DNA of 64,000 nucleotides from Alphaproteobacteria bacterium (lineage in GTDB: Bacteria > Pseudomonadota > Alphaproteobacteria > JAJFFI01), in NCBI GenBank assembly GCA_030066595.1, contig JASJBI010000002.1, positions 1 through 64,000 of the forward strand. The letters are read 5' to 3'. Shown here piece by piece: positions 5,579 through 31,386 of the stretch. The translations under genes were made by a program, and so were the position numbers. The first letter of the stretch is position 1; every line of letters starts with the position of its first letter. Below the pieces are notes generated by a model, which saw only the letters and a list, made by a program, of their open reading frames with translations, had not been told where the DNA came from and made no database searches.

Positions 5579-5665
5579 GGTATAAAGGGGCGCACAACCG
5601 CGCCTAGGCCGATCCGCGACGTCGGGGTCGGGCGCGCATCCGCTGTCCCGAAAGGACCCATTGCC

Positions 5666-6298: not shown

Positions 6299-6391
6299 TC
6301 CTCCGGACCGGCCGTTCCTTCTCTGGCTGAATGGCCGAAGTGTTCAGGCGGGGCGGATCCGGCGGACTGGAAGGAGAGGGGGGAGAGCGGG

Positions 6392-7393: not shown

Positions 7394-7448
7394 GCCGCTT
7401 CTCTCCGGGCGCACCGTCGGGCATACTGGCGGGAAGGCAGGATGCGCC

Positions 7449-7523
7449 ATGAACCTCCACGCCAAGCTCAATGCTCGGGGCGAGGCCGGCGATCCGGTCA
7501 GCGTCGGGATCACACGCCCTTGA
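7449..7523 (+). pseudogene. possible 5' remnant of a SAF-domain dehydrogenase gene
   Basis: A 24-codon frame with a good Shine-Dalgarno sequence (AGGCAGGA) begins MNLHAKLNARGEAGDPVSVGI and then stops. It resembles the first residues of the intact gene at 8711 (MALYTALRERDTPVRVGLI), where the next residues form the NAD-binding loop. The stop falls where the minus-strand exporter gene ends. I read it as the severed start of an older copy, cut when the exporter gene arrived, but the evidence is only about 20 residues. Confidence 0.3.
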
Positions 7524-8532
7524 AGCTTACCTTCCCTTCCAGCTCCACGGCGTCGGAAAGCTGGCGCCGGCTCTCCGCCCGTCGCCGGTAATAGCCGCCG
7601 ATCTGTGCCACGGCGATGCCGGAGAGGATCACCGCACCGCCCGCCAGGACGGGCAGACCCGGCCGTTCGCCGAGCAGCAGGAAGGCGAACACCAACCCCG
7701 CAATCGGCGAGAAGGACGTGGCGAGCGAGGCGTCGGCGGTGCTGGCAGTCCGTATTCCGGTGAACCAAAGCAGCTGCCCGCCGACCACGATGATGGCGCC
7801 GTAGACCACCATCCACTGCCAGAGCAGCGGGCTGAAGGCGTCCTGAAAGTGGTCAATCCCGAACAGGTAGAGCGCCGCGAAGAAGAAGATGATCGTGCCG
7901 ACGCCGGTGCGATAGACGGTGAAGATGCCGATCGGGATATTCTTGAGCCGGACCTTCGAGACGACGGTCGAGCAGGCCAGCGTGGCCGCGGCCGCGGCGG
8001 CCAGGAGCTCGCCCTTGCCAAGCATGACGCCCGTCTCGCGGGCTTGGAGGTAGAAGATCACGCCCACGCCCGCGAGCGAAATCGCGCCGCCCGCCCACGT
8101 CCAGCCGTCGGGGCGCTCCGCGAGCACGAGGACGGACAGGACAAGCAGCAGGGGCGGCTCGATGCGGCCGACCAGAACGACGTTCGTCACCGTCGTGTTC
8201 TCGATGGCGAGGAAGAGCAATGCGGGGGCGAGCGCGCTCGACAGCAGGGCCAGGACGGTCAGGCTGATCCAATCGGCAGGCGTCAGCGCTTTGAGGGTCT
8301 CTCCGGTCCAGGTCCGGCGGTAGATTGCGAACAGCGTCGCGGCGGCACACAGATTGCCTACGAACAGGACGTTGCAAAAGCTGATCGCGTTGCGCCCCTC
8401 GACCGGATTTGCGGCGCCGAGCATGTGCAGCAGTTGCACGATCGAGTTCGCCGCGGCGAAGATCAGAACGGCCGCCCAGACGTAGAGCTGCCCGCGGCCG
8501 CCTTTCGCGATCTCCTTCGTTATCTCCGTCAC
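7510..8532 (-). CDS. EamA/DMT-family transporter
   Basis: An inner-membrane protein of 340 aa with about ten hydrophobic helices in two EamA repeats (roughly 15-150 and 165-300). Each repeat ends in the usual GxExxG-like loop (VLAERPDGWTWAGGAI; LLLGERPGLPVLAGGAV). Members export small metabolites or amino acids; the substrate here is unknown. The start is GTG at 8532 with AGGGGA upstream. It is divergent from the SAF-domain gene, sharing about 180 bp of upstream region. Confidence 0.88.
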   Translation of the reverse strand: MTEITKEIAKGGRGQLYVWAAVLIFAAANSIVQLLHMLGAANPVEGRNAISFCNVLFVGNLCAAATLFAIYRRTWTGETLKALTPADWISLTVLALLSSALAPALLFLAIENTTVTNVVLVGRIEPPLLLVLSVLVLAERPDGWTWAGGAISLAGVGVIFYLQARETGVMLGKGELLAAAAAATLACSTVVSKVRLKNIPIGIFTVYRTGVGTIIFFFAALYLFGIDHFQDAFSPLLWQWMVVYGAIIVVGGQLLWFTGIRTASTADASLATSFSPIAGLVFAFLLLGERPGLPVLAGGAVILSGIAVAQIGGYYRRRAESRRQLSDAVELEGKVSFKGV

Positions 8533-8710
8533 GTCGTCCCCTGCACACCGTGCCGCTTCCGGGCCGCCCTTGCGCTGGCATCGAGGTTAACACCAAGCAG
8601 GGAAGCCGGTGAACCCAATCAACGAGACGGAGCTTGTGGTCCCGGCGGCGGGGCGGAATACTGCGACGGCTACCATTTGGAGACCCGCGACCGCGAAGGG
8701 AACGCAGCCC

Positions 8711-10066
8711 ATGGCTCTGTACACCGCGCTGCGAGAGCGCGATACGCCCGTGCGCGTCGGGCTGATCGGCGCGGGCAAGTTCGGCACCATGTTCCTGGCC
8801 CAGGCGCGGCGCACGCCTGGGCTGCAAGTGCTCGCGGTGGCCGATCTCGACCCGGACCGGGCGCGCCAGTCGTTGACCCGGATCGGCTGGCCGGCTGAGC
8901 AGATTGCGGCCAAGTCCTTTTCCGCGGCGCTCGAGAGCGGCGCCACCCACCTGACCGCGGACGCGGCGGGGCTGATTGCCGCCGACGGGCTCGACGTGGT
9001 GATCGAGGCCACCGGCGGTCCGGCCGCGGGCATCCGACATGCGCTGCTCTCCTGTGAGTACGGTCGGCATGTGGTCATGGTCAACGTCGAGGCCGACGCC
9101 CTGGCGGGGCCGTTGCTGGCGCGCCGGGCGGGCGAGGCCGGGGTGGTCTACTCGCTGGCCTATGGCGACCAGCCGGCGCTGATCGCGGAGTTGGTCGACT
9201 GGGCCCGCGCCGCGGGCTTCGACGTGGTCGCGGCCGGCAAGGGCACCAAATACCTGCCCGAATACCATGCCTCGACGCCGGACACGGTCTGGGACTACTA
9301 CGGCCTCACGCCCGAGGAGGCGCGGGCCGGCGGCATGAACCCGCAGATGTTCAACTCCTTCCTCGACGGCACCAAGTCGGCGATCGAGATGGCGGCGGTG
9401 GCCAACGCCACCGGGCTCACGCCGGCCGCGGACGGGCTCGGCTTTCCGCCCGCCGGCGTCGACGATCTGCCCAATGTCTGCCGGCCGCGGGCCGAGGGCG
9501 GGGCGCTCGCCCGCAAGGGCGCGGTCGAAGTGGTCTCCTCGCTCAACCGGGACGGCACGCCGGTGCACCGGGACCTGCGCTGGGGCGTTTATGTCAGCTT
9601 CGAGGCGGCGTCCGACTATGTCGCGCGCTGCTTCTCCGAGTACGGGCTGGTGACCGACTCGAGCGGCTGGTACGCCGCCATGTACAAGCCCTTCCATCTG
9701 ATCGGGCTGGAGCTTGGTATCTCGGTGGCCTCGGCGGCGCTGCGGGGGGAGCCGACCGGCGCGCCCACGGATTTCCGCGGGGACGTTGTCGCGGTGGCCA
9801 AGCGGGACCTGGCCGCAGGCGAGCTCTTGGACGGGGAGGGGGGCTACACGGTGTGGGGCCGGCTGATGCCCGCCGCCGACTCCCTCGCGGCCGGCGGCCT
9901 GCCGATCGGACTGGCCCACGGCGTGCGCCTGACCCGGGCGGTCGCGGCCGGCAGCATGCTCCGTTGGAGCGATGTCGCGGCGGACGAGGAGAGCCAGGTG
10001 GTGCGCGTCCGCCGGGAGATGGAGGCCGCTTTCACGCCTGCGCCTGTCGTGAAGGCGGGCGAATAA
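8711..10066 (+). CDS. SAF-domain homoserine-dehydrogenase-like oxidoreductase
   Basis: 451 aa. The N-terminal Rossmann fold has VGLIGAGKFGTMFLAQ and AVADLDPDRA. The middle catalytic region contains GDQPALIAELVDWARAAGFDVVAAGKGTKYLP. The C-terminal SAF-like segment (VAVAKRDLAAGELLDGEGGYTVWG) matches the 'predicted homoserine dehydrogenase with C-terminal SAF domain' family. The reaction is unproven. ATG at 8711 is chosen over an in-frame ATG at 8609 because the family begins a few residues before the NAD loop and AAGGGA precedes it. The next gene follows after 5 nt. Confidence 0.85.
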   Translation: MALYTALRERDTPVRVGLIGAGKFGTMFLAQARRTPGLQVLAVADLDPDRARQSLTRIGWPAEQIAAKSFSAALESGATHLTADAAGLIAADGLDVVIEATGGPAAGIRHALLSCEYGRHVVMVNVEADALAGPLLARRAGEAGVVYSLAYGDQPALIAELVDWARAAGFDVVAAGKGTKYLPEYHASTPDTVWDYYGLTPEEARAGGMNPQMFNSFLDGTKSAIEMAAVANATGLTPAADGLGFPPAGVDDLPNVCRPRAEGGALARKGAVEVVSSLNRDGTPVHRDLRWGVYVSFEAASDYVARCFSEYGLVTDSSGWYAAMYKPFHLIGLELGISVASAALRGEPTGAPTDFRGDVVAVAKRDLAAGELLDGEGGYTVWGRLMPAADSLAAGGLPIGLAHGVRLTRAVAAGSMLRWSDVAADEESQVVRVRREMEAAFTPAPVVKAGE

Positions 10067-10071
10067 CGGAG

Positions 10072-10560
10072 ATGCCGATGCAACGACTGACCGCGGTTCT
10101 TGTCGCCGCCGTGCTCTTATCGGGCGTGACCCAGCGTGCGTCCGCGTTCGAGGCCAAGGATTTCCCCTATGCAGGCGTTGAGGTCTTGGCCACCCCGCTT
10201 GACTTCAAGGACATGGTATCTCGTCTCGAGGCGGCGATCGACGCCAACAAGATGGGCCTCGTGACCAAGGCGTCGGCCAGCATCGGCGCGTCCCGTCGCG
10301 GCGTGACGATTCCGGGCAACATGGTCCTCGGCGTGTATCGCAACGACTTTGCCGTGCGCATGCTAGAGGCGAGCGTCCCTGCCGGTATCGAGGCGCCGTT
10401 GCGTTTCTACGTCACGGAGAATCCGGACGGCACTGCCACGCTGACATACCGGAAACCGAGCGCGGTCTTCGCGCCGTACAAGAACGCGGACCTTGATGCC
10501 ATGGCTGCCGAGCTCGACCCCATCTTCGCCAAAATCGCGGCCGAAGCCGCAGGTCGCTAG
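10072..10560 (+). CDS. exported DUF302-family protein
   Basis: 162 aa. Residues 1-24 form a signal peptide (VLVAAVLLSGVTQRASA). The mature part follows the DUF302 pattern: FKDMVSRLEAAIDANKMGLVTKA, then a central strand (GNMVLGVYRN), then PLRFYVTENPDGTATLTYRKPSAVFAPY. DUF302 proteins are small alpha/beta folds without an assigned activity. It starts 5 nt after the SAF-domain gene and is probably cotranscribed with it. Confidence 0.82.
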   Translation: MPMQRLTAVLVAAVLLSGVTQRASAFEAKDFPYAGVEVLATPLDFKDMVSRLEAAIDANKMGLVTKASASIGASRRGVTIPGNMVLGVYRNDFAVRMLEASVPAGIEAPLRFYVTENPDGTATLTYRKPSAVFAPYKNADLDAMAAELDPIFAKIAAEAAGR

Positions 10561-10581
10561 CGAGGCCGGCGAGTAGCGGTT

Positions 10582-11442
10582 CTACCCCGCCGCCGCGGCC
10601 GCTTCCTTGGCCAGATCCAACAACGCCGCCATGACCGGGGTCATGGCCGTGTCCTTGTGCCGGGCAAAGACGGTCGTCGCCCGCGCCATGGGTTCCGGGA
10701 GCGGCTCCAGTCTCAACGCCTCGCGATGCTGGGGCCGCTGGACCACGGATTTGGGCAACAGGGTGATGCCCATGCCCGCCGCCGCGCAGGCCAGAATGGC
10801 ATCGAGCGAGCCCAGCTCGATGATCTGGGATGGCACTTGGCCGTTCTCGCTGAGCCACTGTTCGGTGAGCAGGCGATAGGAGCATCCGTGGCGGAATGCC
10901 AGCATCGCGTCGGGCGTATCCGGCGCCGCGCCGGCCGCGCTGACCAGCACCAGCTCCTCCTCGAACACCGGCTCCTGCACGATCTCCGCCCGCTCGACCG
11001 GGCCGCTCACGAAGACGCCGTCCAGTTTGAAGGCCTGCACCTCGTCCAAGAGATCCGCGGTATGGCCGGTCTTGAGGCTCAGATCGACCTGCGGATAGGC
11101 CTTGTGGTAGTGCGCCAGCACGCCGGGCAGGCGCACCGCGGCCGTACTCTCGAGCGAGCCGATCTTGAGGGAGCCGGCAAACTCCACCGAGCCGCGCACG
11201 GCCTGCTCGGCCTCGCCCACCAGATGCAGCACCCGGTCGGCATAGCCCTGCAGCACGCGGCCCGCGGCAGTCAACGCGACGCCGCGGCTTTGGCGGTGAA
11301 ACAGCCGCGTGTCCAGCTCGTCCTCGAGCTGCTTGATGCGCGCCGACACGTTCGACTGTACGTAGTGCAGCTCCTCGGCGGCGCGGGAAACGCTGCCGGT
11401 CCGGGCCACGGCGGAGAAGATCTCAAGCGCTTTGCTGTCCAT
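10582..11442 (-). CDS. LysR-family transcriptional regulator
   Basis: 286 aa. An N-terminal winged helix-turn-helix (about 1-60, FSAVARTGSVSRAAEELHYVQSNVSARIKQLEDELDTRLFHR) and a LysR substrate-binding domain (about 85-280). It is divergent from a small gene and a nitronate monooxygenase, with 124 bp between that contain an inverted repeat. By the usual LysR arrangement it likely controls that pair and itself; the effector is unknown. Confidence 0.93.
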   Translation of the reverse strand: MDSKALEIFSAVARTGSVSRAAEELHYVQSNVSARIKQLEDELDTRLFHRQSRGVALTAAGRVLQGYADRVLHLVGEAEQAVRGSVEFAGSLKIGSLESTAAVRLPGVLAHYHKAYPQVDLSLKTGHTADLLDEVQAFKLDGVFVSGPVERAEIVQEPVFEEELVLVSAAGAAPDTPDAMLAFRHGCSYRLLTEQWLSENGQVPSQIIELGSLDAILACAAAGMGITLLPKSVVQRPQHREALRLEPLPEPMARATTVFARHKDTAMTPVMAALLDLAKEAAAAAG

Positions 11443-19789: not shown

Positions 19790-22021
19790 CTAGCGGGCTT
19801 GTTCGTCTGCGCCTAGTTGGATCCGCCGCTGCAGCAGGCGCGCGCGCCGGGAGTTCGGGAACAGGCGGACCAGCCGGTCGGCGTAAGACTTGGCTTGCGC
19901 GTACTTGCCGTCGCCGAGATAGAAGAGCGCCAGGGCCTCGAGGATGCGGGGGTCCCGCTCCTCCAGCCGGTGAGCCGCCAGAAGCTCGGCCTCGGCCTCT
20001 TTGCGCCGTCCGAGATGCTGCAACACCAGGGCATGGTTGTACCGGACGCGCGGTTGGTACGGCAGGCGCCGGGCCGCCGCGCCGAGCGCCTCTGCCGCGT
20101 CGTCATACCGCTGCATTTCGCCCAGCAACAGCCCAAGCGAATAGTAGAGCCGGCCGTCGTCGGGCGCGTTCTCCAGCGCCGCCCGCAGCATCGCCTCGGC
20201 CTCGGTGTTGCGCCCGGTCTGGTTATAGAGGTGGGCGAGCGTGACATAGGCCGGGACGAGCCCGGGCGCGAGCCGCAACGCGGTCTTGTTGGCCCGTTCC
20301 GCGAGGTCCGGCCGGCCCCGGTTCATGTACAGGACACCCAGGTTCAGATGCGCCTCCGGCTGGTCGGCCATGGCCTCTTGTGCCGCCTCGTATTCGGCCA
20401 GCGCGTCTTCAAAGGCCTGGCGCCGGGGCGCCTCCAGTCGCGTCGTCGGCACCGGGGCCAGCACCCGCGCCGCCTCCAGCCGGACCGCGCGCACCGGGTC
20501 GTCCAGCAGGGGCGCGGCGTAGGCCGGCCGCCGGACCGGCGGCAGAGCCTCGATGGCGGCGAGCGCGCCCAAGCGCAGGAGAGGATCGTCGCTCTTGAGT
20601 GCCTCGACGACCGGCGCGAGGCTCCTGCGGCTGGTCGGCCGCAGCAACTGCAGCGCCGTCGCCCGCGCGATTGCGGATTGCGCCGGATCTTCGGCCAGCG
20701 CGACCAGCTTGGCCTCGGCCCCGGCCTGACCGTCGCGGCCGGCGGCGATGGCGTCGCCGAAATGGGCGCCCCGCCGGGCCACGCCGCCGGTCCAGGCCAC
20801 GATCGCGTCGGCCGCCCAGTCCGCCGGCTTATCCGCGTGGCAGCCGGTGCAGGCGTCGGGCGTTTCGAGCCGGGCCGAAAGGTCCGGACGGGGAATGCGA
20901 AAGCTGTGGTCCCGGCGCGGGTCGACCACCATGTAGCTGCGCGCCGGCATGTGGCAGTTGACGCACTGCGCCCCGGGCGAGCCGGCGGGGTGGTGATGGT
21001 GGGCGGGTGTGTCATAGGCCTTGCGGGGCAGGGACTCGAAGCGGGCGTCCGGTGCCTGCCCATGGCAGCGGACGCAGAGCGCGTCGCCGTCCGCTTTCAC
21101 GCGGGCGGTGTGGGGATCGTGGCAGTCGGTGCAGCGCACGCCGGCGCGCTGCATCTTGCTCTGCAGGAACGAGCCGTAAACATAGACCTCGTCCTGGATC
21201 TGGCCGTCCGGGAAGTAGAGCTCTTGGCGCAAGAGCGCCGGCCGGAAGTGGTCCAGGAACGGCGCGCCGTGTTCATAGTGTTGGGTGATCGGCGCGCGCC
21301 GCGCGTGGCACCGGGCGCAGGCCTCGATCTCCCGTCCGGGCGCGTCTTCTTTGAAACCGACGACCAGGCCCGTGTCGGCGTCTTCGGTCTTCTCGCCGGC
21401 CCGCGCCCAGGCGACGTGCCGCGCGCCGGGGCCGTGGCAGGCCTCGCAGCTGACGTTGATCTCGGCCCAGCTCGTCGCGTAGCTTTCGCTTTCGAGATCA
21501 TAGCGCTTGCGATAGCCGGTCGTGTGGCATTCGCCGCAGCGGCCGTTCCAGTTGTGCAGCCGTCCGGTCCAGTGGCGCGGATCGCCGGCCGCGATCTCGG
21601 CGTCGGGCAGCAGGTGGAACCAGCGCTTTCGCTCCGTGTCCCAGGCGATGGTCAGCGCCTGCAGCCGGCCCCCCGGCTGCGCGATCAGGTATTGCTGCAA
21701 GGGGGATATGCCGAAGGTATAGACGATCTCGAAATCGGCGAGCCGGCCGTCGGCGCCATCCGTGTTGACGACGTATTTGCCGTCTTTGCGGAAGAAGCGC
21801 GAGGTGACGCCCGCATGTGTGAATCGCGCGTCGTCGAAGTCGCCGAGGACGGTGTCCTCGGAGGCTTCCCGCATGGCCCAGTCGTGATGGGAGCCGGACC
21901 AGGCCTCTCCCTGCGCCTTGTGGCAGGCGACACAGGTCTCCCGGCCGACGAAATCTGCGGCGGCGGAGGCCGCCGAGCCCGCGTCGGCGGCGAGCCGCGC
22001 GGCCAGCCCGAAGGCCACCAC
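19790..22021 (-). CDS. exported octahaem cytochrome c with HEAT and TPR repeats
   Basis: 743 aa. Eight CxxCH haem motifs are visible (CVACH, CGECH, CEACH, CARCH, CTDCH, CVRCH, CVNCH, CTGCH) in the first 390 residues. HEAT-like helices (about 420-520) and several TPR units (about 540-735) follow. It is probably a periplasmic electron carrier or docking protein. The GTG at 22021 is only the best start in this frame: an ATG at 22116 overlaps the stop of the previous gene (TGATG) but runs into a stop after 22 codons. One extra base in the CCCGGG run at 22067-22072 would join it to a proper signal sequence, so a frameshift is suspected. Confidence 0.85.
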   Translation of the reverse strand: MVAFGLAARLAADAGSAASAAADFVGRETCVACHKAQGEAWSGSHHDWAMREASEDTVLGDFDDARFTHAGVTSRFFRKDGKYVVNTDGADGRLADFEIVYTFGISPLQQYLIAQPGGRLQALTIAWDTERKRWFHLLPDAEIAAGDPRHWTGRLHNWNGRCGECHTTGYRKRYDLESESYATSWAEINVSCEACHGPGARHVAWARAGEKTEDADTGLVVGFKEDAPGREIEACARCHARRAPITQHYEHGAPFLDHFRPALLRQELYFPDGQIQDEVYVYGSFLQSKMQRAGVRCTDCHDPHTARVKADGDALCVRCHGQAPDARFESLPRKAYDTPAHHHHPAGSPGAQCVNCHMPARSYMVVDPRRDHSFRIPRPDLSARLETPDACTGCHADKPADWAADAIVAWTGGVARRGAHFGDAIAAGRDGQAGAEAKLVALAEDPAQSAIARATALQLLRPTSRRSLAPVVEALKSDDPLLRLGALAAIEALPPVRRPAYAAPLLDDPVRAVRLEAARVLAPVPTTRLEAPRRQAFEDALAEYEAAQEAMADQPEAHLNLGVLYMNRGRPDLAERANKTALRLAPGLVPAYVTLAHLYNQTGRNTEAEAMLRAALENAPDDGRLYYSLGLLLGEMQRYDDAAEALGAAARRLPYQPRVRYNHALVLQHLGRRKEAEAELLAAHRLEERDPRILEALALFYLGDGKYAQAKSYADRLVRLFPNSRRARLLQRRIQLGADEQAR

Positions 22022-22115
22022 CGCGGCGCCGCCGGCCAGCGCCGGGATTAAGGACAGGCGATCGATCCCGGGACTCCGTCCCGCGCCGTGGCTCGGGATC
22101 GAGGAGAGGTCGCCA

Positions 22116-23378
22116 TCAGAGCGTCAGGCCGACCCGCTTGTCGACGCTCTCCGTGATCCGGATCCCGCGTCCGGCCGCAGTCTCGCGCAGCAATGGACTG
22201 ACCGTTCCGGTCGTCCAGACATCGAGCTGCCCCCTGAAGCCGGCTGGGCGGAAATTCTCCTGAACATAGCTCATGCGCCGGCCGACGATCTCCTCGTAGA
22301 CGCCGTGGTCCCAGGCGAAGGCAATGACCGCGCGCCCGTTCCTGGCTTGGGCGATCGAAAGGCCCAGCATGACCTGGATCTCCGAGATGGGCGAAACCGA
22401 CTTGTGATAGCCGCTCATCACCTCGGCCACGTTCTGGAAGTAGTTGGCGCCGACCTCGTCCTCGGCCGAGAGCGCCAGCGCGATGAGGCGGTCGCGGCCG
22501 CGGGCGCCGTCGAGCGATTCCAGCGCCGCCGTGATGATGGTGTCGTGGCGGGGCGTGAAGGCCGGATGGTCGAGGAACTGCTTTCTGAGATCCGGCGAGA
22601 TGCCCATGGCCTGGAGCTTGGCGTCGTTGATGATGCGCAGGCGCGCGGGCGGTTCCTCCTTGAGCACCTCGTTCATCTGGTCGGACATGCGGATCGAGCT
22701 GAACACGGTGGCGCCGGTCGCCGAAACCGCCATGGTCGCCCCCGTGACGCTCAGCCCGCCAAGCGCGGCGGCCCAGCCGATCCGGTTGAGCTCCTCCTGC
22801 AGGACCTTGTTGCTGGAGTAGACGTCGCAGCCGTATTGGGCGCAGAAGTCCCGTTTCCAGGAGGAGACGAAGAGCGCCTGCTTGAGCCGGCTGTCCTCGC
22901 TCGGGTCCTGCTTTTCCGTCACCGCCGTGCCCACGTTCCCGAAGATCTGGAAGACCCCGCGCGGCAGGCCGTTCAGCGTGTCGACCGGGTCCTCGATCAG
23001 ATTCTTGCCCAGGCGTATCGGCGACTTCGCCGCGTAGCCCACGGCCTGGAGGTAGGCGTCGGATTTCTGGATCTTTTTCAGCTCCGCGATCACCCGGATC
23101 TCGTTCAGGAGCTTCTGCAGGGCGAAGTTGCCGGTCACCTCGTAGGTGCCGAAGTCCGAGTTCACGGTGTAGGTGTGCATGAACCCATAGGTCACGACCT
23201 TTTCGTCGATCCGATAGTTCGGTCCCTTGAGCACGTCCGCTGGCAGGATATTCGACGCGCGGCGGTTGCTGCCCACCTCGTAAGTCTCCTGCGCCAAGGC
23301 GCTGCCGACGCCGGCGGCCGTGACCGACAGAGCGGCGGCCAGGCAGGCGCCCGCAATCCTGATCAGTACTCCCCTCAT
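22116..23378 (-). CDS. exported protein of unknown function (420 aa)
   Basis: A signal peptide spans residues 1-30 (IAGACLAAALSVTAAGVGSALAQ). The mature protein is largely helical, with two Cys (CAQYGC near 165) and a hydrophobic Gly/Ala-rich stretch near 190-215. No known family is recognised. Its stop overlaps a candidate ATG for the multihaem cytochrome, so the two may act together. GGAGTAAG precedes the ATG at 23378. Confidence 0.65.
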   Translation of the reverse strand: MRGVLIRIAGACLAAALSVTAAGVGSALAQETYEVGSNRRASNILPADVLKGPNYRIDEKVVTYGFMHTYTVNSDFGTYEVTGNFALQKLLNEIRVIAELKKIQKSDAYLQAVGYAAKSPIRLGKNLIEDPVDTLNGLPRGVFQIFGNVGTAVTEKQDPSEDSRLKQALFVSSWKRDFCAQYGCDVYSSNKVLQEELNRIGWAAALGGLSVTGATMAVSATGATVFSSIRMSDQMNEVLKEEPPARLRIINDAKLQAMGISPDLRKQFLDHPAFTPRHDTIITAALESLDGARGRDRLIALALSAEDEVGANYFQNVAEVMSGYHKSVSPISEIQVMLGLSIAQARNGRAVIAFAWDHGVYEEIVGRRMSYVQENFRPAGFRGQLDVWTTGTVSPLLRETAAGRGIRITESVDKRVGLTL

Positions 23379-23466
23379 TTTCTTACTCCGTTGACGTGAA
23401 ATCAGTTTCGGGCGCCGCGACCAGAGACCGGCGCGCTGCACTGTGCCTCTCGCGCATGATCGGCGC

Positions 23467-23823
23467 TCATACCGCGTTGAGCCAGGCCCAGGCCGCGTCC
23501 CTGTCCTGCGGCAAAAAATGACGCAGCCTGCAGTCGAGCTGTTCCGCCAGCTGTCTTGCCGACTCCGCCAGTTTCTCCGGGCCGACCACGGCGATACGCT
23601 CGAAATCGGTCCGGTGTCTGCTTCGAAACAGGAACGCGCCCGACTGTCCCTCCTCGTCCCAGCCCTCGAGTTCCTCCCAATCGACATAGGCACGAACCGT
23701 CCCCCGGTTCCCGAGGAACGCTTCGAACTCGGGCATGAACGACTGATAGTCGGCATCCGTAAGGACACCGCTCGCCTTGACCACGATCACACGATCCGTC
23801 GTCTCCGGCAAAATCTCGAACAT
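23467..23823 (-). CDS. STAS/SpoIIAA-like protein
   Basis: 118 aa. The sequence MFEILPETTDRVIVVKASGVLTDADYQSF, then VRAYVDWEELEGW and FERIAVVGPEKLAE, follows the SpoIIAA-like (STAS superfamily) pattern of short cytosolic proteins. The start at 23823 has GGAGAC upstream; in-frame codons further up look non-coding. A 25-bp motif shared with the sulfatase promoter lies 104 bp upstream. Confidence 0.82.
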   Translation of the reverse strand: MFEILPETTDRVIVVKASGVLTDADYQSFMPEFEAFLGNRGTVRAYVDWEELEGWDEEGQSGAFLFRSRHRTDFERIAVVGPEKLAESARQLAEQLDCRLRHFLPQDRDAAWAWLNAV

Positions 23824-23926
23824 GTCTCCGTTTCCCTCTTCCGGAGCCCAGGATATTCGAACCCAGCGCGGCGGATCGCTGCTCGTGATCCCGCCGCGCC
23901 GGGGGATGGTAGACCGGCGCCCGCGC

Positions 23927-23951
23927 CTGAGAAACTGGCATCTTTGACAGG
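23927..23951 (-). promoter_or_regulatory. 25-bp shared motif, copy 1 (upstream of the STAS gene)
   Basis: Plus-strand consensus of the three copies: TG-R-GA-W-ACTGG-N-A-NN-T-N-T-N-ACAGG. Copies at 23927, 26392 and 31835 agree at 17 of 25 positions with no gaps. The outer CTG...CAG gives weak dyad symmetry. This copy ends 104 bp before the STAS-like gene. Confidence 0.55.
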
Positions 23952-23982
23952 CCTCGCGCAGGCGCAAGGCGTATCGTCCTCC

Positions 23983-24618
23983 CTATTTCGGGCCGTAGAT
24001 CGCGTCGATCCGCTTCTCCAGGTTCTCGCCCCACCGGTCGATCACCTGATAGGCGTGGCCGAGCGATTCGAAGCCGGCGGTGATCCCCATGCGGTTCCCG
24101 GCCCGCTCGTCGGCCGCCGCTATGATCGTCTCGCCGCTGACGGAATCGACCATCTCGGCTTCCATCGCGGCCCCGCCGAGACCCATGCCGCTCAACCGCA
24201 TCAGGGGATGGATGTTCAGCACCGGCTCGGTCTGCTCGACCGAGGTGATGGCTGCACGGAGGCGGGCCACGCCCGGCCCGGATCGATCGACGACCTCGAA
24301 GCGCTGGGACAAGATCCCGATCACCTTGTTCTGCATGTAGCTCGCCACCTCGCCCAGCTTGGCGGCGTCGATGCTGGTGCCCTTGGCGTTCGGCTTGAAG
24401 TGCACCACGATCGGGTCGACCACGAATTTGGTGTACGTCTTCACGTCCTTGTCAGGATTCTGATAGTAGTACTGGGCGAGACCCATGGGGTCGTCTTTCA
24501 GATTCGAATAGTCGCGCAAAAAGCCCGAGAACTGGGACTGCGCATAAGCAGCTGCGGACAGCGCCCCGAGCATGGCCACCGCCATGACCGGGGTCACGAA
24601 TTTTCTGATCGAGACCAT
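23983..24618 (-). CDS. exported DUF3313-family protein
   Basis: 211 aa. The signal peptide ends in SAAAYAQ (near residue 27). FSGFLRDYSNLK directly after it is the start of the DUF3313 pattern, which continues with YTKFVVDPIVVHF and a helical C-terminus. DUF3313 members are periplasmic or lipoprotein-like and uncharacterised; this one lacks a lipobox Cys. AGGAGG precedes the ATG. It lies 89 bp after sulfatase 1 on the same strand. Confidence 0.8.
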   Translation of the reverse strand: MVSIRKFVTPVMAVAMLGALSAAAYAQSQFSGFLRDYSNLKDDPMGLAQYYYQNPDKDVKTYTKFVVDPIVVHFKPNAKGTSIDAAKLGEVASYMQNKVIGILSQRFEVVDRSGPGVARLRAAITSVEQTEPVLNIHPLMRLSGMGLGGAAMEAEMVDSVSGETIIAAADERAGNRMGITAGFESLGHAYQVIDRWGENLEKRIDAIYGPK

Positions 24619-24707
24619 TATCTCCCTCCTAAAGTTTGTCTGGGCAACCCTGTCGGAGCCGACAGCGTCGCTCGCGCGCCGCGCCGACCCCGCCTCATCT
24701 CTCGGCG

Positions 24708-26321
24708 TCAGTCATGCGCCGTCAACTCCGACCCCTTGGGCATCACATCCGACGTGCGGTGCGGAAACTTGGCGATCAGCTGCATGTGCCCGCGCATTGT
24801 AAATTGGATCGGCGTCACCGCATAAAGACCGGGATAGAACTGGCCGCGCTTCTCGGCCGGGTCCCGCATGACGTTGTAGAAGTCCATGGCCGGGAGCCCG
24901 CCGTGGCCGCCGGGCTTGATGTGGATCTTGAAATCCTCGTAGCGGATGGCCGCCAAGGTGCCGCCGCTGTAATGCATCAGGTAGTTGCGCCGCGAATGCC
25001 CCTCGCCCAGCAGCAGGAGCGGCGTCTGGTCGACGCCGTCGGTCACCCGATCGTTGGGGATCTTGTCCATCGCGCCCGCGAGCCGGGCCGCCGTGGTGTA
25101 CAGGTCGGTCAGGTGGATCATGTCGACCGGGTCCTGGTTCGGCTCGATCATGCCGGGCCACCAGGCCATTCCGGGCACGCGCACGCCGCCCTCTAGCACG
25201 TCGCCCTTGGCGCCCCGCAGCCAGGAATAGCCCGAGGTCGGCCAGAAGGCGTACATCGGCCCGTTGTCGCTCCACCACACCACCAGGGTGTTCTCGTCGA
25301 TGCCCTGCTCCTTGAGCGTGTCGAGCAGTTGCCGGATATGGTCGTTGTGCATGGCCATGAACGAGCCCTGCGCGTTGGCGTGGTCCACGTGCGGCGCGTC
25401 CTTGAACGCCTCCGAGCCCATGATCTGCTGGGTGTAGGTCGCCCAATAGATGAAGAAGGGCCTTTCGCTGTTGGCCTTGTCATTGATGAAGTCCTTGATC
25501 TGCTTGATCGACTCGGTTTCGAAGGCCTCCTGCCGCTTGATCCCGAGCTGGCCCGCAATGCCCGGGATCGGCCTGCGGCCCTTGTCCTTCTCGCCGATAT
25601 AGCCGGCGACGGACAGATCGATGCCGGTCCGCCTCTTGTATTCCTCCACGCCGACGAAGTCGTAGAACGGCGGCGCGGCCGGGTTCGGCATGGACTGCTG
25701 ATAGAACTCGGCGCTCATCGGCCAGGCATCGGGTGCGCCGTTGAACAGGCCGTAATAGGCATAGTCATAGCCCTGGTTCTCGGGCGCGTGCTCGGGCAGG
25801 TCGCCAAGATGCCATTTGCCCCACATGGCGGTGTGATAGCCGGCTTCGGAGAGTATCTCGGCGACCGTCACCTCCTCGGGCGACAGCCCCTCGGTCTGAC
25901 CGGGCCACAGCACGCTGAGGAGTCCCGTGCGCACCGGATGGCGGCCGGTGTTGATGGCGATGCGCGACGGCGTGCAAGAGGGCTCGGCATAGGCCGACCA
26001 GAAGCGCATGCCGTCGAAGGCCATCTTGTCGAGCTCGGGCGTCGGCGTGCCGCGGTGCTTGCCGCCGCCCTGCCAGCCGAGCTCGCCCCAGCCCACGTCG
26101 TCGGCCAGGATGTAGATGATGTTCGGTTTCTTGCCGAAGCGCTCTTCCAGGGCGGCGAGTTTGTCGTTGATGGTCTTGTCCTCCCCGGCCCAGGCGGCCT
26201 TGTTCTTCTCTTGATGCGACAGAAAGGGCGCGTCGGGTTGGAAGGCGTTTGCCGCGCCGGACAGCGCGATCGTGGTGGCAAGCACCGCGGCAAGCCGCAC
26301 TGCGTGGATTTCTGCTCTCAT
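24708..26321 (-). CDS. exported arylsulfatase (sulfatase 1)
   Basis: 537 aa. A signal peptide (AAVLATTIALSGAANA) leads into a sulfatase domain: NIIYILADDVGWGE holds the metal-binding Asp pair, and SCTPSRIAINTGRHPVRTG holds the Cys converted to formylglycine in a canonical C-x-P-S-R. GKWHLGD and WWSDNGP are further active-site blocks. It hydrolyses a sulfate (or phosphonate) ester in the periplasm; substrate unknown. AGGAGGGAG lies upstream of the ATG. The shared 25-bp motif and a barrel-gene remnant lie immediately upstream. No anaerobic or FGE-type maturase is in the window. Confidence 0.93.
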   Translation of the reverse strand: MRAEIHAVRLAAVLATTIALSGAANAFQPDAPFLSHQEKNKAAWAGEDKTINDKLAALEERFGKKPNIIYILADDVGWGELGWQGGGKHRGTPTPELDKMAFDGMRFWSAYAEPSCTPSRIAINTGRHPVRTGLLSVLWPGQTEGLSPEEVTVAEILSEAGYHTAMWGKWHLGDLPEHAPENQGYDYAYYGLFNGAPDAWPMSAEFYQQSMPNPAAPPFYDFVGVEEYKRRTGIDLSVAGYIGEKDKGRRPIPGIAGQLGIKRQEAFETESIKQIKDFINDKANSERPFFIYWATYTQQIMGSEAFKDAPHVDHANAQGSFMAMHNDHIRQLLDTLKEQGIDENTLVVWWSDNGPMYAFWPTSGYSWLRGAKGDVLEGGVRVPGMAWWPGMIEPNQDPVDMIHLTDLYTTAARLAGAMDKIPNDRVTDGVDQTPLLLLGEGHSRRNYLMHYSGGTLAAIRYEDFKIHIKPGGHGGLPAMDFYNVMRDPAEKRGQFYPGLYAVTPIQFTMRGHMQLIAKFPHRTSDVMPKGSELTAHD

Positions 26322-26391
26322 CGTTACTCCCTCCTGAATGCGTCCGCCCCCTGGTGTCCCTCTGAGACGGATCGTAATCCGGCGCAAGAGC

Positions 26392-26416
26392 TTGAGAAAC
26401 TGGTACTTCTTACAGG
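26392..26416 (-). promoter_or_regulatory. 25-bp shared motif, copy 2 (upstream of sulfatase 1)
   Basis: Contains ACTGGTACTTCTTACAGG on the plus strand, aligning without gaps to the copies at 23927 and 31835. It lies 70 bp upstream of the sulfatase 1 ATG, where a promoter or operator is expected. Confidence 0.6.
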
Positions 26417-26429
26417 GGACGGCGATTCG

Positions 26430-26459
26430 CCAGCGCAACGGCGCAATAATCGGCGTCAT
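26430..26459 (-). pseudogene. decayed 3' end of a barrel gene (tail A)
   Basis: The minus strand encodes MTPIIAPLRW, matching the end of the intact barrel protein (VAPIIPALF) and, better, the remnant at 31336 (VAPTIAPLRW). 18 plus-strand bases (CCAGCGCAACGGCGCAAT) are identical to the copy near 31336. It precedes sulfatase 1 just as the intact barrel precedes sulfatase 2. Confidence 0.5.
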
Positions 26460-26548
26460 CCCCATCATGAGTGGGGCCGAACAGGTTGCGCCGCGCCAAA
26501 GTCGGCGTCATCCCAATGGCCTGGGTTACGCTCGCGAGCATCGGCTCA

Positions 26549-28324
26549 CTAATTTCCGATCGCCTCCACACCAAGGACGACATCTCTTGCGTCGCCGTAT
26601 ATCTTCAGCCAGGTTCGCACCATGGCTTTCGTCTCCGGCCGCAGATTTTCCACGCCCTCGTATGGCATGCCGCGGGCGGGTTGCCAGTCAGGCCACTTGT
26701 CCTTCATTCGCAGGTGCTGGATGCGCATGCGCACGAAGGGCGTACCTGCCCAGACACCCTGGTATTTTAGGGGGTTATCCTCCCGCGGATCCCAATACAG
26801 GTTGTAGAACTCTGCCATGGCCGGGTTCACGCCCGGCGGCGGCCAGTGGATTTTCATGTTCTGTTTCACGGTCGCCTTGAGCGTGTCCACTTCATAGAGG
26901 TGCACGTAGTCACGGCGCCCATTGGTATCGCCTTTCAGGAGGATGGCGGTCTGATCGACGCCGTCGACGATGCGGTCACGGGGGATGCCGTCTGTGTTGC
27001 CGGCGATCCGGGCGAAGGTGGTGTAGAGGTCGCTGACAAAGACCATGTCCCCGGCGATGGAACCGGGCTCAATTGCGCCCGGCCAACGGATGAAAGCGCC
27101 GACGCGGTGACCGCCTTCCAGCGCCTGCCCTTTGGTGCCGCGAAACAGCCATTCGGAGTAGCCGGAGAGCTCAAGGTCCTGCTTCATCGGGCCGTTGTCG
27201 CCCATGACCATGACAATGGTGTTGTTCTCGATGCCCAGTTTCTTGATTTCGGCCAGGAGCTCGCCGATGTAGCCATCGACAACCGCCATGGCATTGGCCC
27301 AGCGTCCGCAGTTGGGGGTCTGGCACCCGCCGTCATCGGTTGACCTGAGAACAGCCACCGGGATTTGCGGCCAGTAGTTCAGGAAGAAGGGCTTGTCGCC
27401 GCTCGCCAGCGCGCGCAGTGACTCCACCGCTTGTTCCTGGAAACGGTCGTTGACCCTCTTGTAGAACTCGATGTCCGGCTTTTCTCCAGGCTTGATGCCC
27501 CACTCGCGCAATTTGCCGCCGCGCTTGCCCTCCACCTGGGTGACCCAGTCGTACAGTCGGAAGGTCTTGTCCAGCCCGTAGTCGGGGTCGACAGTGGTCG
27601 GTGTAAAAGAGGTCGTTCGGGCATCGAGTTCGGCGTCCCGTGTCAGGAAGCTATAGGCCACTTGGTTGTGCATGGGGAACGACGCGTAATCGAAACCCTG
27701 ATTGGTCGGATAGGCTTCCTTGATGTCACCCATATGCCACTTACCGATGTGGTGAGTCGTATAACCCGCATTGGACAGCAGCTCGGCGATCGTCACCTCT
27801 TTGTCATTAAACCCGACGCCCTCGGGCGGCGTGACCTTTGTGAGCTCCATTCCGGTCCGTACGGCATAGCGCCCGGTCATGAAGGCGACGCGCGTCGAGG
27901 TGCAGATGTTCTCTGCATAGAAACGGGTAAAGGTCATGCCCTCTTTTGCCAGGGTATCGAGGCTCGGTGTACGGCCACCACGGATCTTGTTCAGTTCCGG
28001 CATGCCAAACTCGCCGAAGCCCATGTCGTCGATCAGGATGTACACGATGTTCGGCGGCTTGCCGTCGTTGCGCTCCCTGATCTCGGCGAGCCGCCTATCC
28101 AGTTCCTTGTCCTCGGCGGCCCACTGCTCCGCATACTGATGCAAGAGAACATAGTGCTCCGCGTCATGCCGGATTGGTTGCGCGCTCGCCGCCGAAGCCA
28201 AGACGGCAGAGGCGAACGTAGTGATGCCAACGACTGCCGCGCTTTTGTAGGCGATGGAGCGAACCGCGCCCGACAGCGCACCGAAAAGTGCGGTCTCGCC
28301 GTGCTTTCGCGTCCTCATGTTCAT
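26549..28324 (-). CDS. exported sulfatase-family hydrolase with variant active site (sulfatase 2)
   Basis: 591 aa with an N-terminal export signal (VVGITTFASAVLASAASAQ). The sulfatase fold shows NIVYILIDDMGFGE, GKWHMGD and VMGDNGP, but the formylglycine motif reads ICTSTRVAFMTG. Ser replaces the Pro/Ala of C-x-P-x-R and Thr replaces the following Ser. Whether the Cys is still converted is open. It is longer than sulfatase 1 and only distantly similar. CGGAGAA precedes the ATG. It follows the barrel gene by 76 bp on the same strand. Confidence 0.88.
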   Translation of the reverse strand: MNMRTRKHGETALFGALSGAVRSIAYKSAAVVGITTFASAVLASAASAQPIRHDAEHYVLLHQYAEQWAAEDKELDRRLAEIRERNDGKPPNIVYILIDDMGFGEFGMPELNKIRGGRTPSLDTLAKEGMTFTRFYAENICTSTRVAFMTGRYAVRTGMELTKVTPPEGVGFNDKEVTIAELLSNAGYTTHHIGKWHMGDIKEAYPTNQGFDYASFPMHNQVAYSFLTRDAELDARTTSFTPTTVDPDYGLDKTFRLYDWVTQVEGKRGGKLREWGIKPGEKPDIEFYKRVNDRFQEQAVESLRALASGDKPFFLNYWPQIPVAVLRSTDDGGCQTPNCGRWANAMAVVDGYIGELLAEIKKLGIENNTIVMVMGDNGPMKQDLELSGYSEWLFRGTKGQALEGGHRVGAFIRWPGAIEPGSIAGDMVFVSDLYTTFARIAGNTDGIPRDRIVDGVDQTAILLKGDTNGRRDYVHLYEVDTLKATVKQNMKIHWPPPGVNPAMAEFYNLYWDPREDNPLKYQGVWAGTPFVRMRIQHLRMKDKWPDWQPARGMPYEGVENLRPETKAMVRTWLKIYGDARDVVLGVEAIGN

Positions 28325-28400
28325 GGCTGTTCTCCGCGATGAAAGGTGAAAGCGTAGGGATAGGGATGAAGGCGAAGTGCCGCGATGGCGCGTATGCCGC

Positions 28401-29609
28401 TCAGAACAGCGCCGGAATGATCGGCGCGACGACCACGCGGATGTTCCATTCCTGACCCAGCACGTCCGGCCGTTGCGGCATCCACTGGCCTTCGATCCCG
28501 AACTTGATCGGCATCCTGCCGAAGAAATGTGTCTTGTAGACACCGAAGCCCAAGGGCACGGTCCAGCGATCCCCGCTGTCGGCTTCCCAGTCGGCGGTGA
28601 TGATGGGCGTGCCGCCGATCTGCCAGCCGTCGTCAAAATTGAGGAAATAGAACAGGTTCAGCCAGGTGAAGTTGACGTCCGAGGCGTCGCTGCGGGTGCT
28701 CGCCACCGAGAACCACTGCTGCAGCAGGGCGCCCACGATGAACTTCCGACCGATGAACGCCAGAACGCCCGAGGGGCCCAAGGAGTACTGGTCGGTACCG
28801 AGGCGGGTGTCGCTCGCTGTCGGGAACTGTTGCGTGAGGCCGCCGGCCCAGACCAAATCGCCGCCGCCCCATCGCTCTTGCGGCAGGCTCTGGCCGACGA
28901 GCGAGAAATACACGATATCGCCGAAGCCACTTTTGCTCGTGAACGGCGCGCCGCCGGGTGGGGGGAAGCCCCCGATCTCGGGCGTGGCGCCGCCAATGAG
29001 CGTGCTCTGGACCTGTCCGACATCCGGGATGGAGGCATTCATGATGGTGGGAAAGGTCGGGCGGTTCACCCAGATCCAGTTCTCGCCAAGGGTCTCCGTC
29101 AAGGGAATGGGAATGACCGGTTGGAAGGCCCAGGTGTTCAGGTGGCGGGTCCGGCTGCTGATGTCGCCTTCGAGGAAGTAGTTGTCGAACTGATTGAGCA
29201 GGATCCAGAAGTTGCCGCCGAGCGGGTTCGAAGACTGCCGCGCCGCCTCCTCGACGCTGAGCCCCACGGCGCCCCCCTCTTCGGCGGGAGCCTGCTGATC
29301 GCCCGCAGGCTTTGCCGCAAGCTGCGTGCCGAAGAGATCGAGTTTGCGCAGCTGTGTTTGCCGGGCCGGATCGATCTGCAACGTTGCCCGGTCGGGCAGG
29401 TCTTGTTGTTGGCCGACCCGTTCCTCCGTAACCCGTCCCGGCTGGCCGCCCAAGGCCGGCGGCGGCGTTTTCCAGGATTTTGTCAGGGCGCGCGCAGCGG
29501 CGTCGCCACCTCCGTCGCCTGGCGCCACACCGTCCGCTTGCACGGCCCCCGCCAGCGCCGAGCCGCCGATCAACAAGAGCGCCCCAATGCGTGGTGTCAT
29601 CTCTACCAT
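28401..29609 (-). CDS. outer-membrane beta-barrel protein
   Basis: 402 aa. The signal peptide (ALLLIGGSALAGAVQA) is followed by a polar region to about residue 110. SNPLGGNFWILLNQFDNYFLEGD and alternating aromatic/polar strands end in a C-terminal Phe, as expected for a BAM-dependent barrel. This resembles transporter-type barrels often mis-annotated as 'neuromedin U'. It is the first gene of the minus-strand run leading to both sulfatases and may admit or hold their substrate. Three degraded copies of its 3' end lie nearby. Confidence 0.82.
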   Translation of the reverse strand: MVEMTPRIGALLLIGGSALAGAVQADGVAPGDGGGDAAARALTKSWKTPPPALGGQPGRVTEERVGQQQDLPDRATLQIDPARQTQLRKLDLFGTQLAAKPAGDQQAPAEEGGAVGLSVEEAARQSSNPLGGNFWILLNQFDNYFLEGDISSRTRHLNTWAFQPVIPIPLTETLGENWIWVNRPTFPTIMNASIPDVGQVQSTLIGGATPEIGGFPPPGGAPFTSKSGFGDIVYFSLVGQSLPQERWGGGDLVWAGGLTQQFPTASDTRLGTDQYSLGPSGVLAFIGRKFIVGALLQQWFSVASTRSDASDVNFTWLNLFYFLNFDDGWQIGGTPIITADWEADSGDRWTVPLGFGVYKTHFFGRMPIKFGIEGQWMPQRPDVLGQEWNIRVVVAPIIPALF

Positions 29610-29759
29610 GACTCCCCCGTGCCGCCCCTACTGGCACAAACGGGGCTCGGTATCGCTGTCGACGCAGCGCCCCGCTCTGTGCACGCCGCGGCATGACTTG
29701 CGACGCGCTGTCAGTCTATCATTGCGATGCTAAAAGAAGTGTTTCGCATGCCCAGCTTA

Positions 29760-29775
29760 CATACGCCCACGTATG
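29760..29775. promoter_or_regulatory. inverted repeat between tetR and barrel gene
   Basis: CATACG-CCCA-CGTATG is a perfect 6-bp inverted repeat with a 4-base spacer, 33 bp before the tetR start and 151 bp before the barrel gene start. It is a good candidate for the operator of the divergent TetR protein. Confidence 0.55.
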
Positions 29776-29807
29776 GTACTGACAAGTAGCATGAACGGTC
29801 AACCGTC

Positions 29808-30419
29808 TTGAACGAGCGACAATCAGAGCAGCCGCGCAAACGCTCCGGGAACCGTGCGCGGATGCGCTCTCCGGAGGACTGGCTCAAGCAGGCGCTGGTG
29901 ATCCTGCGGCGCGAGGGCGTCGAGGGCGTGCGCGTGGAGCGACTCGCCCGGGATCTCAGCATCTCCAAGGGGAGCTTCTATTGGCACTTCAGGGACCGTA
30001 GCGATCTCCTCGGACGCATGCTCGACTATTGGGACAGCGAGATGACCGGCGCCATCATCGAAGAAACCGAGCGCAAAGGCGGCACGCCGGTACAGAGGCT
30101 CTGGACGATCATGACCACGGTCAGGCGGCGGCACGCGGCGGACTTCGATGTTGCCGTGCGCGCCTGGGCCGCCTTCGACCGGACTGCCGCCAAGGTGGTC
30201 AAGCGGGTCGACGCCCGGCGGCTCGACTTTGTCCGGAGCAGATTTCGAGAACTCGGCTTCCGAGGCCGCGCGCTCGACACACGAACGCGGCTCTTCGTCC
30301 ACTATGTTTCGACCGAGCCTAGCATTCTCCCGCGCCCACCGGCCGCAGAGGGGGAAAAGCTCGCGCGTGCCGCACTCTCGCTGTTGACGGCGCGGCCAGA
30401 CGACCAAGGGCAAGGCTAG
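29808..30419 (+). CDS. TetR-family regulator divergent from the sulfatase locus
   Basis: 203 aa from a TTG start; an ATG at 29862 would give a more usual N-terminus. The helix-turn-helix is within ALVILRREGVEGVRVERLARDLSISKGSFYWHFRDRSDLL. The C-terminal domain is helical with no recognised ligand signature. It is divergent from the barrel-sulfatase run, with an inverted repeat in the 198-bp gap, so it probably controls that run. Its 3' end abuts a decayed sulfatase fragment. Confidence 0.9.
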   Translation: MNERQSEQPRKRSGNRARMRSPEDWLKQALVILRREGVEGVRVERLARDLSISKGSFYWHFRDRSDLLGRMLDYWDSEMTGAIIEETERKGGTPVQRLWTIMTTVRRRHAADFDVAVRAWAAFDRTAAKVVKRVDARRLDFVRSRFRELGFRGRALDTRTRLFVHYVSTEPSILPRPPAAEGEKLARAALSLLTARPDDQGQG

Positions 30420-30427: not shown

Positions 30428-30575
30428 GCGTCCAAGATGGTCTTGTCTTTCTCGGCCCAAGCCGTCTTGTTCTCTTCCAGATGCCAGAGAAGAGGGCCGT
30501 CGGGTCGGAAGGCGCTGGCCGCGCCGGGCAGGACGATGATCGGCGCGCCCCGCGCGACGTTCCGATCCGCGCTCG
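30428..30575 (-). pseudogene. fused remnant: barrel tail B joined to a sulfatase N-terminus
   Basis: Read on the minus strand, RNVARGAPII matches the barrel C-terminus (WNIRVVVAPII) and runs in frame into GAASAFRPDGPLLWHLEEN...KDKTILD. That second part matches the signal-peptide end and start of mature sulfatase 1 (GAANAFQPDAPFLSHQEKN); 22 of 34 residues are identical over the aligned stretch. No sulfatase active site remains. This is a deletion scar of a third barrel-sulfatase unit. Confidence 0.7.
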
Positions 30576-30871: not shown

Positions 30872-31261
30872 ATGATCATGCGTTTTTTCGATCCCGCGCG
30901 CTTTCACTTTGTCTTCCTTGTGCCCTTGGTGGCATCGAACCTCACGAGCGACAACGCGATGAGCGCCAAAGACCTGCGCGAGCAGTTCGTCGGCAATACG
31001 GTGGTCGCGCAGTTGCCACAAGGCACCGCATACGCCCTGGTGCGGCCGGACGGGGTCGCGCGCGGCCTGCACCCGGTTGAGGGGCGCATAAACGGCCGCT
31101 ATGAGATCGCAGACGATGGCGTCGTCTGCGTCACCTGGCCCCTTGCTTCGGGCGAAGTCAGGAATTGCGACAAGACCGTCGCGCAAGGAGGTCGGAAATA
31201 TAACTGGGAGGGGAAGACGCTGGAGGTTCTTCCAGGCGATCCAAAGGGGCTGGGCAAGTAA
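30872..31261 (+). CDS. small exported protein of unknown function (129 aa)
   Basis: The N-terminus has a hydrophobic stretch (FHFVFLVPLVASNLTS) that may be a signal peptide. The mature part (MSAKDLREQFVGNTVVAQL, then GRYEIADDGVVCVTW and CDKTVAQGGRKYNW) resembles a widespread family of small periplasmic proteins with a 'DLRxxxxGNTV' start and two Cys. No function is assigned. GGGGAGG lies upstream of the ATG. It is the only plus-strand gene between tetR and mdh. Confidence 0.65.
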   Translation: MIMRFFDPARFHFVFLVPLVASNLTSDNAMSAKDLREQFVGNTVVAQLPQGTAYALVRPDGVARGLHPVEGRINGRYEIADDGVVCVTWPLASGEVRNCDKTVAQGGRKYNWEGKTLEVLPGDPKGLGK

Positions 31262-31335
31262 GGCTGTCTCGATAGACTGAAGAGGGCCATTCAGCTTGGC
31301 CCGTGTGCTGCGGATGGCTGGACGCGAGGAAGCGG

Positions 31336-31386
31336 CCAGCGCAACGGCGCAATGGTCGGCGCGACAAACCAGCGGATGTTCCATTC
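31336..31386 (-). pseudogene. decayed 3' end of a barrel gene (tail C)
   Basis: The minus strand reads EWNIRWFVAPTIAPLRW, against EWNIRVVVAPIIPALF with stop in the intact barrel; the frame then runs on past the old stop. It lies directly downstream of the intact 65-residue gene on the minus strand. Confidence 0.7.

Follow-up and report, generated by a model that had tools for sequence, protein, structure and literature searches.

S1 sulfatases are commonly viewed as simple hydrolases whose reaction requires no redox partner. The genes of a Sinorhizobium meliloti pSymA cluster with which we compare the present locus below (probably SMa1683-SMa1682-SMa1680, the tags being inferred) appear singly, in tables or in passing in the accessible parts of the papers that name them, and we found no description of a pairing between sulfatases and octahaem cytochromes in the open-access literature searched. 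The locus analyzed here lies in a stretch of 64,000 nucleotides (the window) from Alphaproteobacteria bacterium, assembly GCA_030066595.1, contig JASJBI010000002.1. It consists of seven consecutive minus-strand open reading frames (ORFs), A to G, at 19790-29609, and a divergent TetR ORF with a TTG start. A first-pass annotation of the sequence had reported this run and its divergent regulator, and both proved to be real, with the ORFs as claimed. Genes B and C encode S1 sulfatases and gene G encodes an octahaem c-type cytochrome. It is clear from the searches presented below that the sulfatase and the octahaem cytochrome constitute the recurrent core of this locus, and that the run in the window is one lineage's version of it, with gene A present in a few relatives.

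The G protein has exactly eight CXXCH motifs and carries the features of a family defined by alignment, namely eight CXXCH motifs with conserved spacing together with DGQ, QSKM/QSRM..GV.C..CH and PRPD blocks. Catalytic octahaem enzymes such as HAO, ONR, OTR and MccA are recognized by a specific active-site haem and residues; what the G sequence displays is eight CXXCH motifs of the plain kind. The haem domain is conserved out to Gammaproteobacteria and Bacteroidota, and the tetratricopeptide repeat (TPR) part is missing in some relatives (L109, L111 and L112). Six histidines outside the CXXCH motifs (46, 202, 304, 341, 344 and 372) are invariant in 17/17 sequences and H150 is nearly so, which would be about enough for the haems of G to be mostly bis-histidine coordinated, perhaps with one open haem. 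The GTG start assigned at 22021 lies within a longer open frame, with a weak signal peptide and an uncertain true start. When the G profile was compared with solved structures, the first non-repeat match was PDB 6i5b, listed as “Uncharacterized protein” (E 1.9e-27), a score that may come partly from the CXXCH repetition and that does not allow function to be transferred. We take 6i5b to be the multihaem cytochrome OcwA of Thermincola.

The first sign of a pairing came from plasmid relatives of G in Rhizobium and Ensifer, which adjoin sulfatases. In the window's own class, G was matched in 8/372 genomes (its own included) at E<=1e-25, and in those eight genomes a PF00884 gene was present within 5 kb at 8/11 G loci, where 0.21 would be expected from the sulfatase density. 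These 11 loci include the window as well as G008:C336, which was found through the search with gene F; the latter, which sits at a contig edge, is one of the three misses, together with a locus whose sulfatase is 10.3 kb off and the one in genome G010. For the held-out sample, the prediction that a majority of G loci would have a sulfatase within 5 kb was recorded ahead of the search outcome. The haem domain was matched in 35/398 genomes of the phylum (own included) at E<=1e-40, and after exclusion of the window, G023 and G066 as already seen, 37 loci remained, all of them (37/37) encoding a G protein with eight CXXCH motifs. In both searches the loci counted per genome are lower bounds, i.e. 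at least that many. Neighbour families in the held-out loci were assigned with phmmer at E<=1e-10 over approximately 6 kb on each side, L151 being cut by a contig end. A sulfatase was found within 5 kb at 21/37 loci against 0.75 expected (P about 9e-27 if the loci are independent). Of the 21 pairs, 16 have G and its nearest sulfatase on one strand and 16 have them no more than 505 bp apart, and the positives were spread over 10/14 family codes.

A third set of loci came from plasmids, where 147 records match G. Fourteen of these were examined, three from the first listing and eleven picked for taxonomic range; the Rhizobium sullae sulfatase had already been seen beforehand. They include Rhizobium, Sinorhizobium pSymA, Ensifer, Roseibium, Methylosinus OB3b, a Rhodobacteraceae isolate, Vibrio, Pseudoalteromonas and the bacteroidote Aureibacter, and a sulfatase was located within 5 kb of G in 13/14, the exception being Alloyangia with a sulfatase fragment 6.8 kb off. 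One Rhizobiaceae arrangement, consisting of a sulfatase, a HAD phosphatase-like gene and the cytochrome, accounts for 6/14 records. The viral contigs searched gave one weak match.

The history of the pairing was followed on a tree of 57 haem domains, from which three truncated or frame-broken sequences (L016, L082 and L084) and two near-copies (L116 and L119) were omitted. A sulfatase is present within 5 kb for 40 rows of the tree, of an approximately 550-residue type in 29 and an approximately 800-residue type in 11, and the two types occur beside G in unrelated parts of the tree. The sulfatase labels require 14 changes compared to a shuffled mean of 24.0, and none of 200 shuffles gave a value as low. 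The strongly supported branches alone force 8 label changes for the shorter type and 3 for the longer one, which implies several gains or losses of the pairing. In the first-pass annotation the cytochrome was an unexpected addition to the run. Since its adjacency to S1 sulfatases recurs far above chance in all three sets of loci (8/11, 21/37 and 13/14), it can no longer be regarded as an odd one.

Table 1 Features of the sulfatase-octahaem cytochrome locus in the window.
Feature	Coordinates	Strand	Basis
A: exported, presumed outer-membrane barrel (“transporter” type)	28401..29609	-	homology to plasmid proteins
B: exported S1 sulfatase, 589 aa, motif CTSTR	26549..28318	-	PF00884 E 2.2e-36
C: exported S1 sulfatase, motif CTPSR	24708..26321	-	PF00884 E 1e-42
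D: exported DUF3313 protein	23983..24618	-	PF11769 E 8.3e-38
E: SpoIIAA/STAS-like, presumably cytosolic	23467..23823	-	PF11964 E 2.6e-20, translation
F: exported, rare family	22116..23378	-	no Pfam/NCBIfam match
G: octahaem c-type cytochrome, C-terminal half TPR repeats	19790..22021	-	TPR and multihaem families, eight CXXCH
H: TetR-family regulator, divergent	29808..30419	+	TetR_N PF00440 E 3.5e-8
Candidate operator CATACG-N4-CGTATG	29760..29775	.	within chance on its own

The features of the locus are collected in Table 1. Given the chosen starts, the intergenic gaps in the run are 82-227 bp, and terminator-like sites across the region are at shuffle level (10 compared to a shuffle mean of 7.9, sd 3.0). 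Export signals were assessed by eye and not with a signal-peptide program. Signal-peptide-like N-termini were seen in A, B, C, D and F. E has no signal peptide and that of G is weak, points on which the first-pass annotation had been firmer. The earlier family assignments held for PF00884 (twice), PF11769, PF11964, the TPR/multihaem families and TetR_N, but the barrel has no library match. Among the seven genes and the TetR gene we found no glycoside hydrolase, lyase or SusCD/TonB-type uptake gene, as would characterize a sulfatase polysaccharide-utilisation locus, and no sulfonate or sulfate-ester ABC transporter, as would characterize an ssu/ats cluster.

Gene C encodes a regular S1 sulfatase (147 bits against the PF00884 cut-off of 25, with a CTPSR motif); its start was set at MRAEIH..., although the open frame extends further. 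The available part of a published description gives the S1 modification motif as (C/S)-X-(P/A)-X-R (PMC6189696). B clearly belongs to PF00884 (126.2 bits, cut-off 25), and the best-scoring solved chain for it is 7aj0, an arylsulfatase, but its CTSTR motif has Ser in place of Pro/Ala and deviates from the standard motif, and the usual enzymes of maturation may act poorly on B. Its nearest named relatives, three Ruegeria plasmid sulfatases with 43-51% identity, all have CTPTR, and no B-type sulfatase was found outside its own genome among the 398 phylum genomes at E<=1e-60. A Ser at the same position is seen in the Aureibacter sulfatase (L113 4346-5841, in two reading frames), which has CTSSR and adjoins cytochrome b, Rieske and octahaem cytochrome genes. 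Downstream of the TetR gene, fragments at 30436-30537 and 31335-31361 resemble the 5' part of C (80.6% over 103 bp, and 27 bp of the leader, respectively). They are approximately 800 bp apart with an ORF at 30872-31261 (+) between them, and are probably the remains of a third, broken sulfatase gene.

At E 0.01, A matched neither a Pfam nor an NCBIfam family. The claim that it is a barrel is thus carried by its plasmid homologues, some of which are annotated “transporter”; in addition, the relative in L109 matches PF13557 (Phenol_MetA_deg) with a score below the family cut-off. A second genomic copy of A at C31 is 44% identical across residues 107-398. D (130.5 bits, PF11769 cut-off 26.1) and E (73.5 bits, PF11964 cut-off 25; ATG start at 23823) score above the cut-offs of their families.

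When conserved co-occurrence of these families, proposed earlier as a check on their joint function, was analyzed in other genomes, it was found widely for the sulfatase and G and in part for A, a relative of which is found alongside the sulfatase-G pair in L070, L075, L109 and L161. For D, E and F it was scarce or not seen. The D family occurs beside G once in the held-out set (L155) and beside F in one other genome. No relative of E was seen beside G or F in the loci examined, the held-out limit of 1e-10 being strict for a protein so short. Relatives of F were found at 14 genome-contig loci with varied surroundings (four of them from one metagenome-assembled genome, MAG) and on none of the plasmids searched, and a sulfatase was present beside 0/14 within the available flanks, several contigs being short. 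In that MAG, F adjoins a DUF3313 gene (L015/L023) and G (L016/L026). A single conserved seven-gene operon was consequently rejected, as F has no sulfatase in the available flanks elsewhere, D and E scarcely co-occur and B-type sulfatases are rare; D, E and F are regarded as lineage-specific extras.

An AF2 model of F built from 15 sequences had a mean pLDDT of 72.7, and Foldseek found no match to it under 1e-3. The C-terminal part (from about residue 305 to the end) gave restriction-endonuclease-like rows in VIA-align at an unreliable level (best Z 6.5 for 1y88, 5.9 for EndoMS). A nuclease reading of F was not adopted, given Z values below 8, the signal-peptide-like start and no ExK motif noted by eye, and we describe F simply as an exported protein without an assigned fold. 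Two F relatives, in L028 from a Nitrospinota MAG and in L032 from an alphaproteobacterial MAG, share an approximately 610-residue neighbour (L028 468-2351 and L032 538-2379) that has no Pfam match and is 48% identical over 579 columns between the two; a HupE/UreJ gene is found near the relative in L032.

The inverted repeat that had been noted before the run is indeed exact (CATACG-CCCA-CGTATG) and unique in the window allowing one mismatch, but when the 198-bp gap was shuffled, a comparable inverted repeat turned up in 42% of cases. The proposal that it is the TetR operator is therefore unsupported on its own. The regulators beside G differ between lineages, with a sensor kinase and response regulators in Rhizobiaceae and TetR at the window locus.

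Redox partners were found beside G in six loci overall and are therefore the exception. Cytochrome b (PF00033) and Rieske (PF00355) genes sit between the sulfatase and G in Aureibacter, and in Methylosinus the order is sulfatase, G, and then [2Fe-2S] and molybdenum (Mo) hydroxylase genes. No sulfatase was found within 5 kb in L156, where FAD-SLDH, GMC oxidoreductase and trihaem cytochrome genes are in line with G (5017-11060), in L157 and L159, which have FAD-SLDH and trihaem cytochrome genes beside G, or in L168, which has a Mo-hydroxylase set and an aldose epimerase gene. In L156 a sugar/alcohol dehydrogenase seems to have an octahaem cytochrome as additional partner. Because the visible redox neighbours are periplasmic or membrane electron-transfer enzymes, they support a putative electron-transfer role of G around the oxidation of sugars, alcohols or aldehydes. 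The earlier suggestion that the cytochrome couples the process to respiration fits the dehydrogenase, Mo hydroxylase and cytochrome b/Rieske neighbours, but these are present in some genomes only.

A different type of neighbour is the MoxR-DUF58-VWA-VWA block, parts of which are found within 5 kb of G in 14/37 held-out loci. In unrelated genomes a MoxR-DUF58-DUF4381-VWA-VWA-unknown block is located near G at L078 13015-19647, L080 14588-20000, L111 1333-7782 and L118 14665-17153, where L118 shows only the last two genes of the block and L111 has only a sulfatase fragment.

We propose, with a probability of roughly 0.45, that the genes of the run form an inducible envelope module by which the cell uses a sulfated organic compound. 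This substrate would enter through the putative outer-membrane protein A, and the exported sulfatase C, and probably B, would strip its sulfate in the periplasm, as known for the family. G would carry electrons between this periplasmic process and the respiratory chain, and TetR would control the run. Most likely, a periplasmic dehydrogenase would oxidize the desulfated sugar, alcohol or aldehyde and pass the electrons to G, an electron flow proposed because of the neighbours of G in other genomes; the direction of flow, the dehydrogenase and the substrate are accordingly all presumptive. We thus infer a module in which periplasmic desulfation is coupled to electron transfer.

Several observations weigh against this proposal. 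In the held-out sample, 16/37 G loci are without a sulfatase inside the 5-kb limit, including each of the six that belong to family code f194 (of which L155 has a sulfatase 5,014 bp from G), and genome G010 has a shortened G with the nearest sulfatase 460 kb distant. The chance estimate assumes independent loci and randomly scattered sulfatases, neither of which holds fully; the held-out loci are not independent because related genomes occur among them. The window's run contains no dehydrogenase, and among the sulfatase-G loci the redox-partner queries matched just two, Methylosinus with its Mo hydroxylase and Aureibacter with cytochrome b/Rieske. Finally, the MoxR/VWA company would suit a function in assembly or stress just as well as one in substrate oxidation.

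This last point leads to an alternative that we find unlikely, albeit the best of those considered, namely that the locus maintains the envelope or responds to stress. The sulfatases and G would remodel or protect the cell's own envelope (e.g. sulfated surface polymers or lipids), with G acting against oxidants and MoxR/VWA proteins assembling G, and no food would be taken up. Apart from the MoxR block parts described above, this would agree with a run devoid of ABC importer and glycoside hydrolase, with the variable regulators (sensor kinase and response regulators in Rhizobiaceae, TetR here), and with the part of a report in which SMa1686, a probable regulator adjoining the S. meliloti copy (gene mapping inferred), is described as RirA-regulated (PMC4560400). 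It does not readily explain why an A relative accompanies the pair in four loci, or why sugar or aldehyde dehydrogenases replace the sulfatase beside G in others.

It is still less probable that the sulfatases simply supply sulfate by scavenging while G and the other genes merely share an accessory region with them as bystanders. The S1 sulfatases do carry export signals, and for S. medicae the portion of the source available assigns arylsulfatases that neighbour ssu transport genes to organic sulfur utilisation (PMC4053727), but the run has no ssu/tau transporter or sulfonatase, and the sulfatase-cytochrome pairing recurs far above chance.

A further idea was prompted by the G-bearing genomes, which match PF00884 in 40/40 cases (8/8 and 32/32) and of which 26/40 have neither a relative of the formylglycine-generating enzyme (FGE) nor the anaerobic maturase anSME over its cut-off. 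An FGE relative was found in only 6/40 and anSME in 8/40, and these absences are soft, the FGE test being one query protein at E<=1e-30 and the anSME test one model at its cut-off; of 24 PF03781 loci in the first eight genomes, two showed the cysteine pair of FGE. G, in some lineages with MoxR/VWA helpers, could thus mature or reactivate the active-site cysteine of the S1 sulfatase by an electron-withdrawing route to formylglycine without FGE or anSME, and if so would supply one missing maturation route for Cys-type sulfatases in genomes where neither enzyme is recognisable. An unidentified maturation route is mentioned for E. coli in the accessible literature, and we know of no G in E. coli. 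We consider the idea very improbable, since a sulfatase within 5 kb is commoner at held-out G loci of genomes that encode FGE or anSME (12/14) than at those of genomes with neither (9/23), PF03781 proteins are present in 8/8 genomes tested, anSME-model matches below the cut-off occur in 15 further genomes, anSME is encoded approximately 10-16 kb from G in G439, G610, G542 and G685, and S. meliloti, a carrier of the pair, has a putative FGE according to the part of the source consulted (PMC6189696).

Returning to desulfation coupled to electron transfer, G accompanies two sulfatase types in Alphaproteobacteria, Gammaproteobacteria and a bacteroidote, which suggests that many bacteria, Sinorhizobium and marine groups among them, tie desulfation to electron transfer. 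The pairing hints at a connection, so far unstudied, between degradation of sulfated compounds and respiration. It also offers a testable role for genes whose annotation reads “tetratricopeptide repeat protein” or “multiheme c-type cytochrome”, and the pair is present in laboratory strains.

How does the locus compare to known systems? The loci with a membrane-bound FAD sugar/alcohol dehydrogenase and trihaem cytochrome, in line with G relatives in L156, L157 and L159, differ by having no sulfatase within 5 kb, whereas the window's run has no dehydrogenase. The MoxR-DUF58-VWA blocks, which we take to be Bat-like, have no match in the window but stand beside the sulfatase-G pair in several lineages. 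The ssu/ats clusters of S. medicae have arylsulfatase genes as the window does, but according to the part of the description available (PMC4053727) they include sulfonate ABC transporter genes, which are absent from the window's run. The S. meliloti pSymA cluster differs in having a HAD phosphatase-like gene between the members of the pair and a sensor kinase with two response regulators, and has no match to D, E, F or TetR of the window; its likeness to the window is the S1 sulfatase gene approximately 1.1 kb from the ortholog of G.

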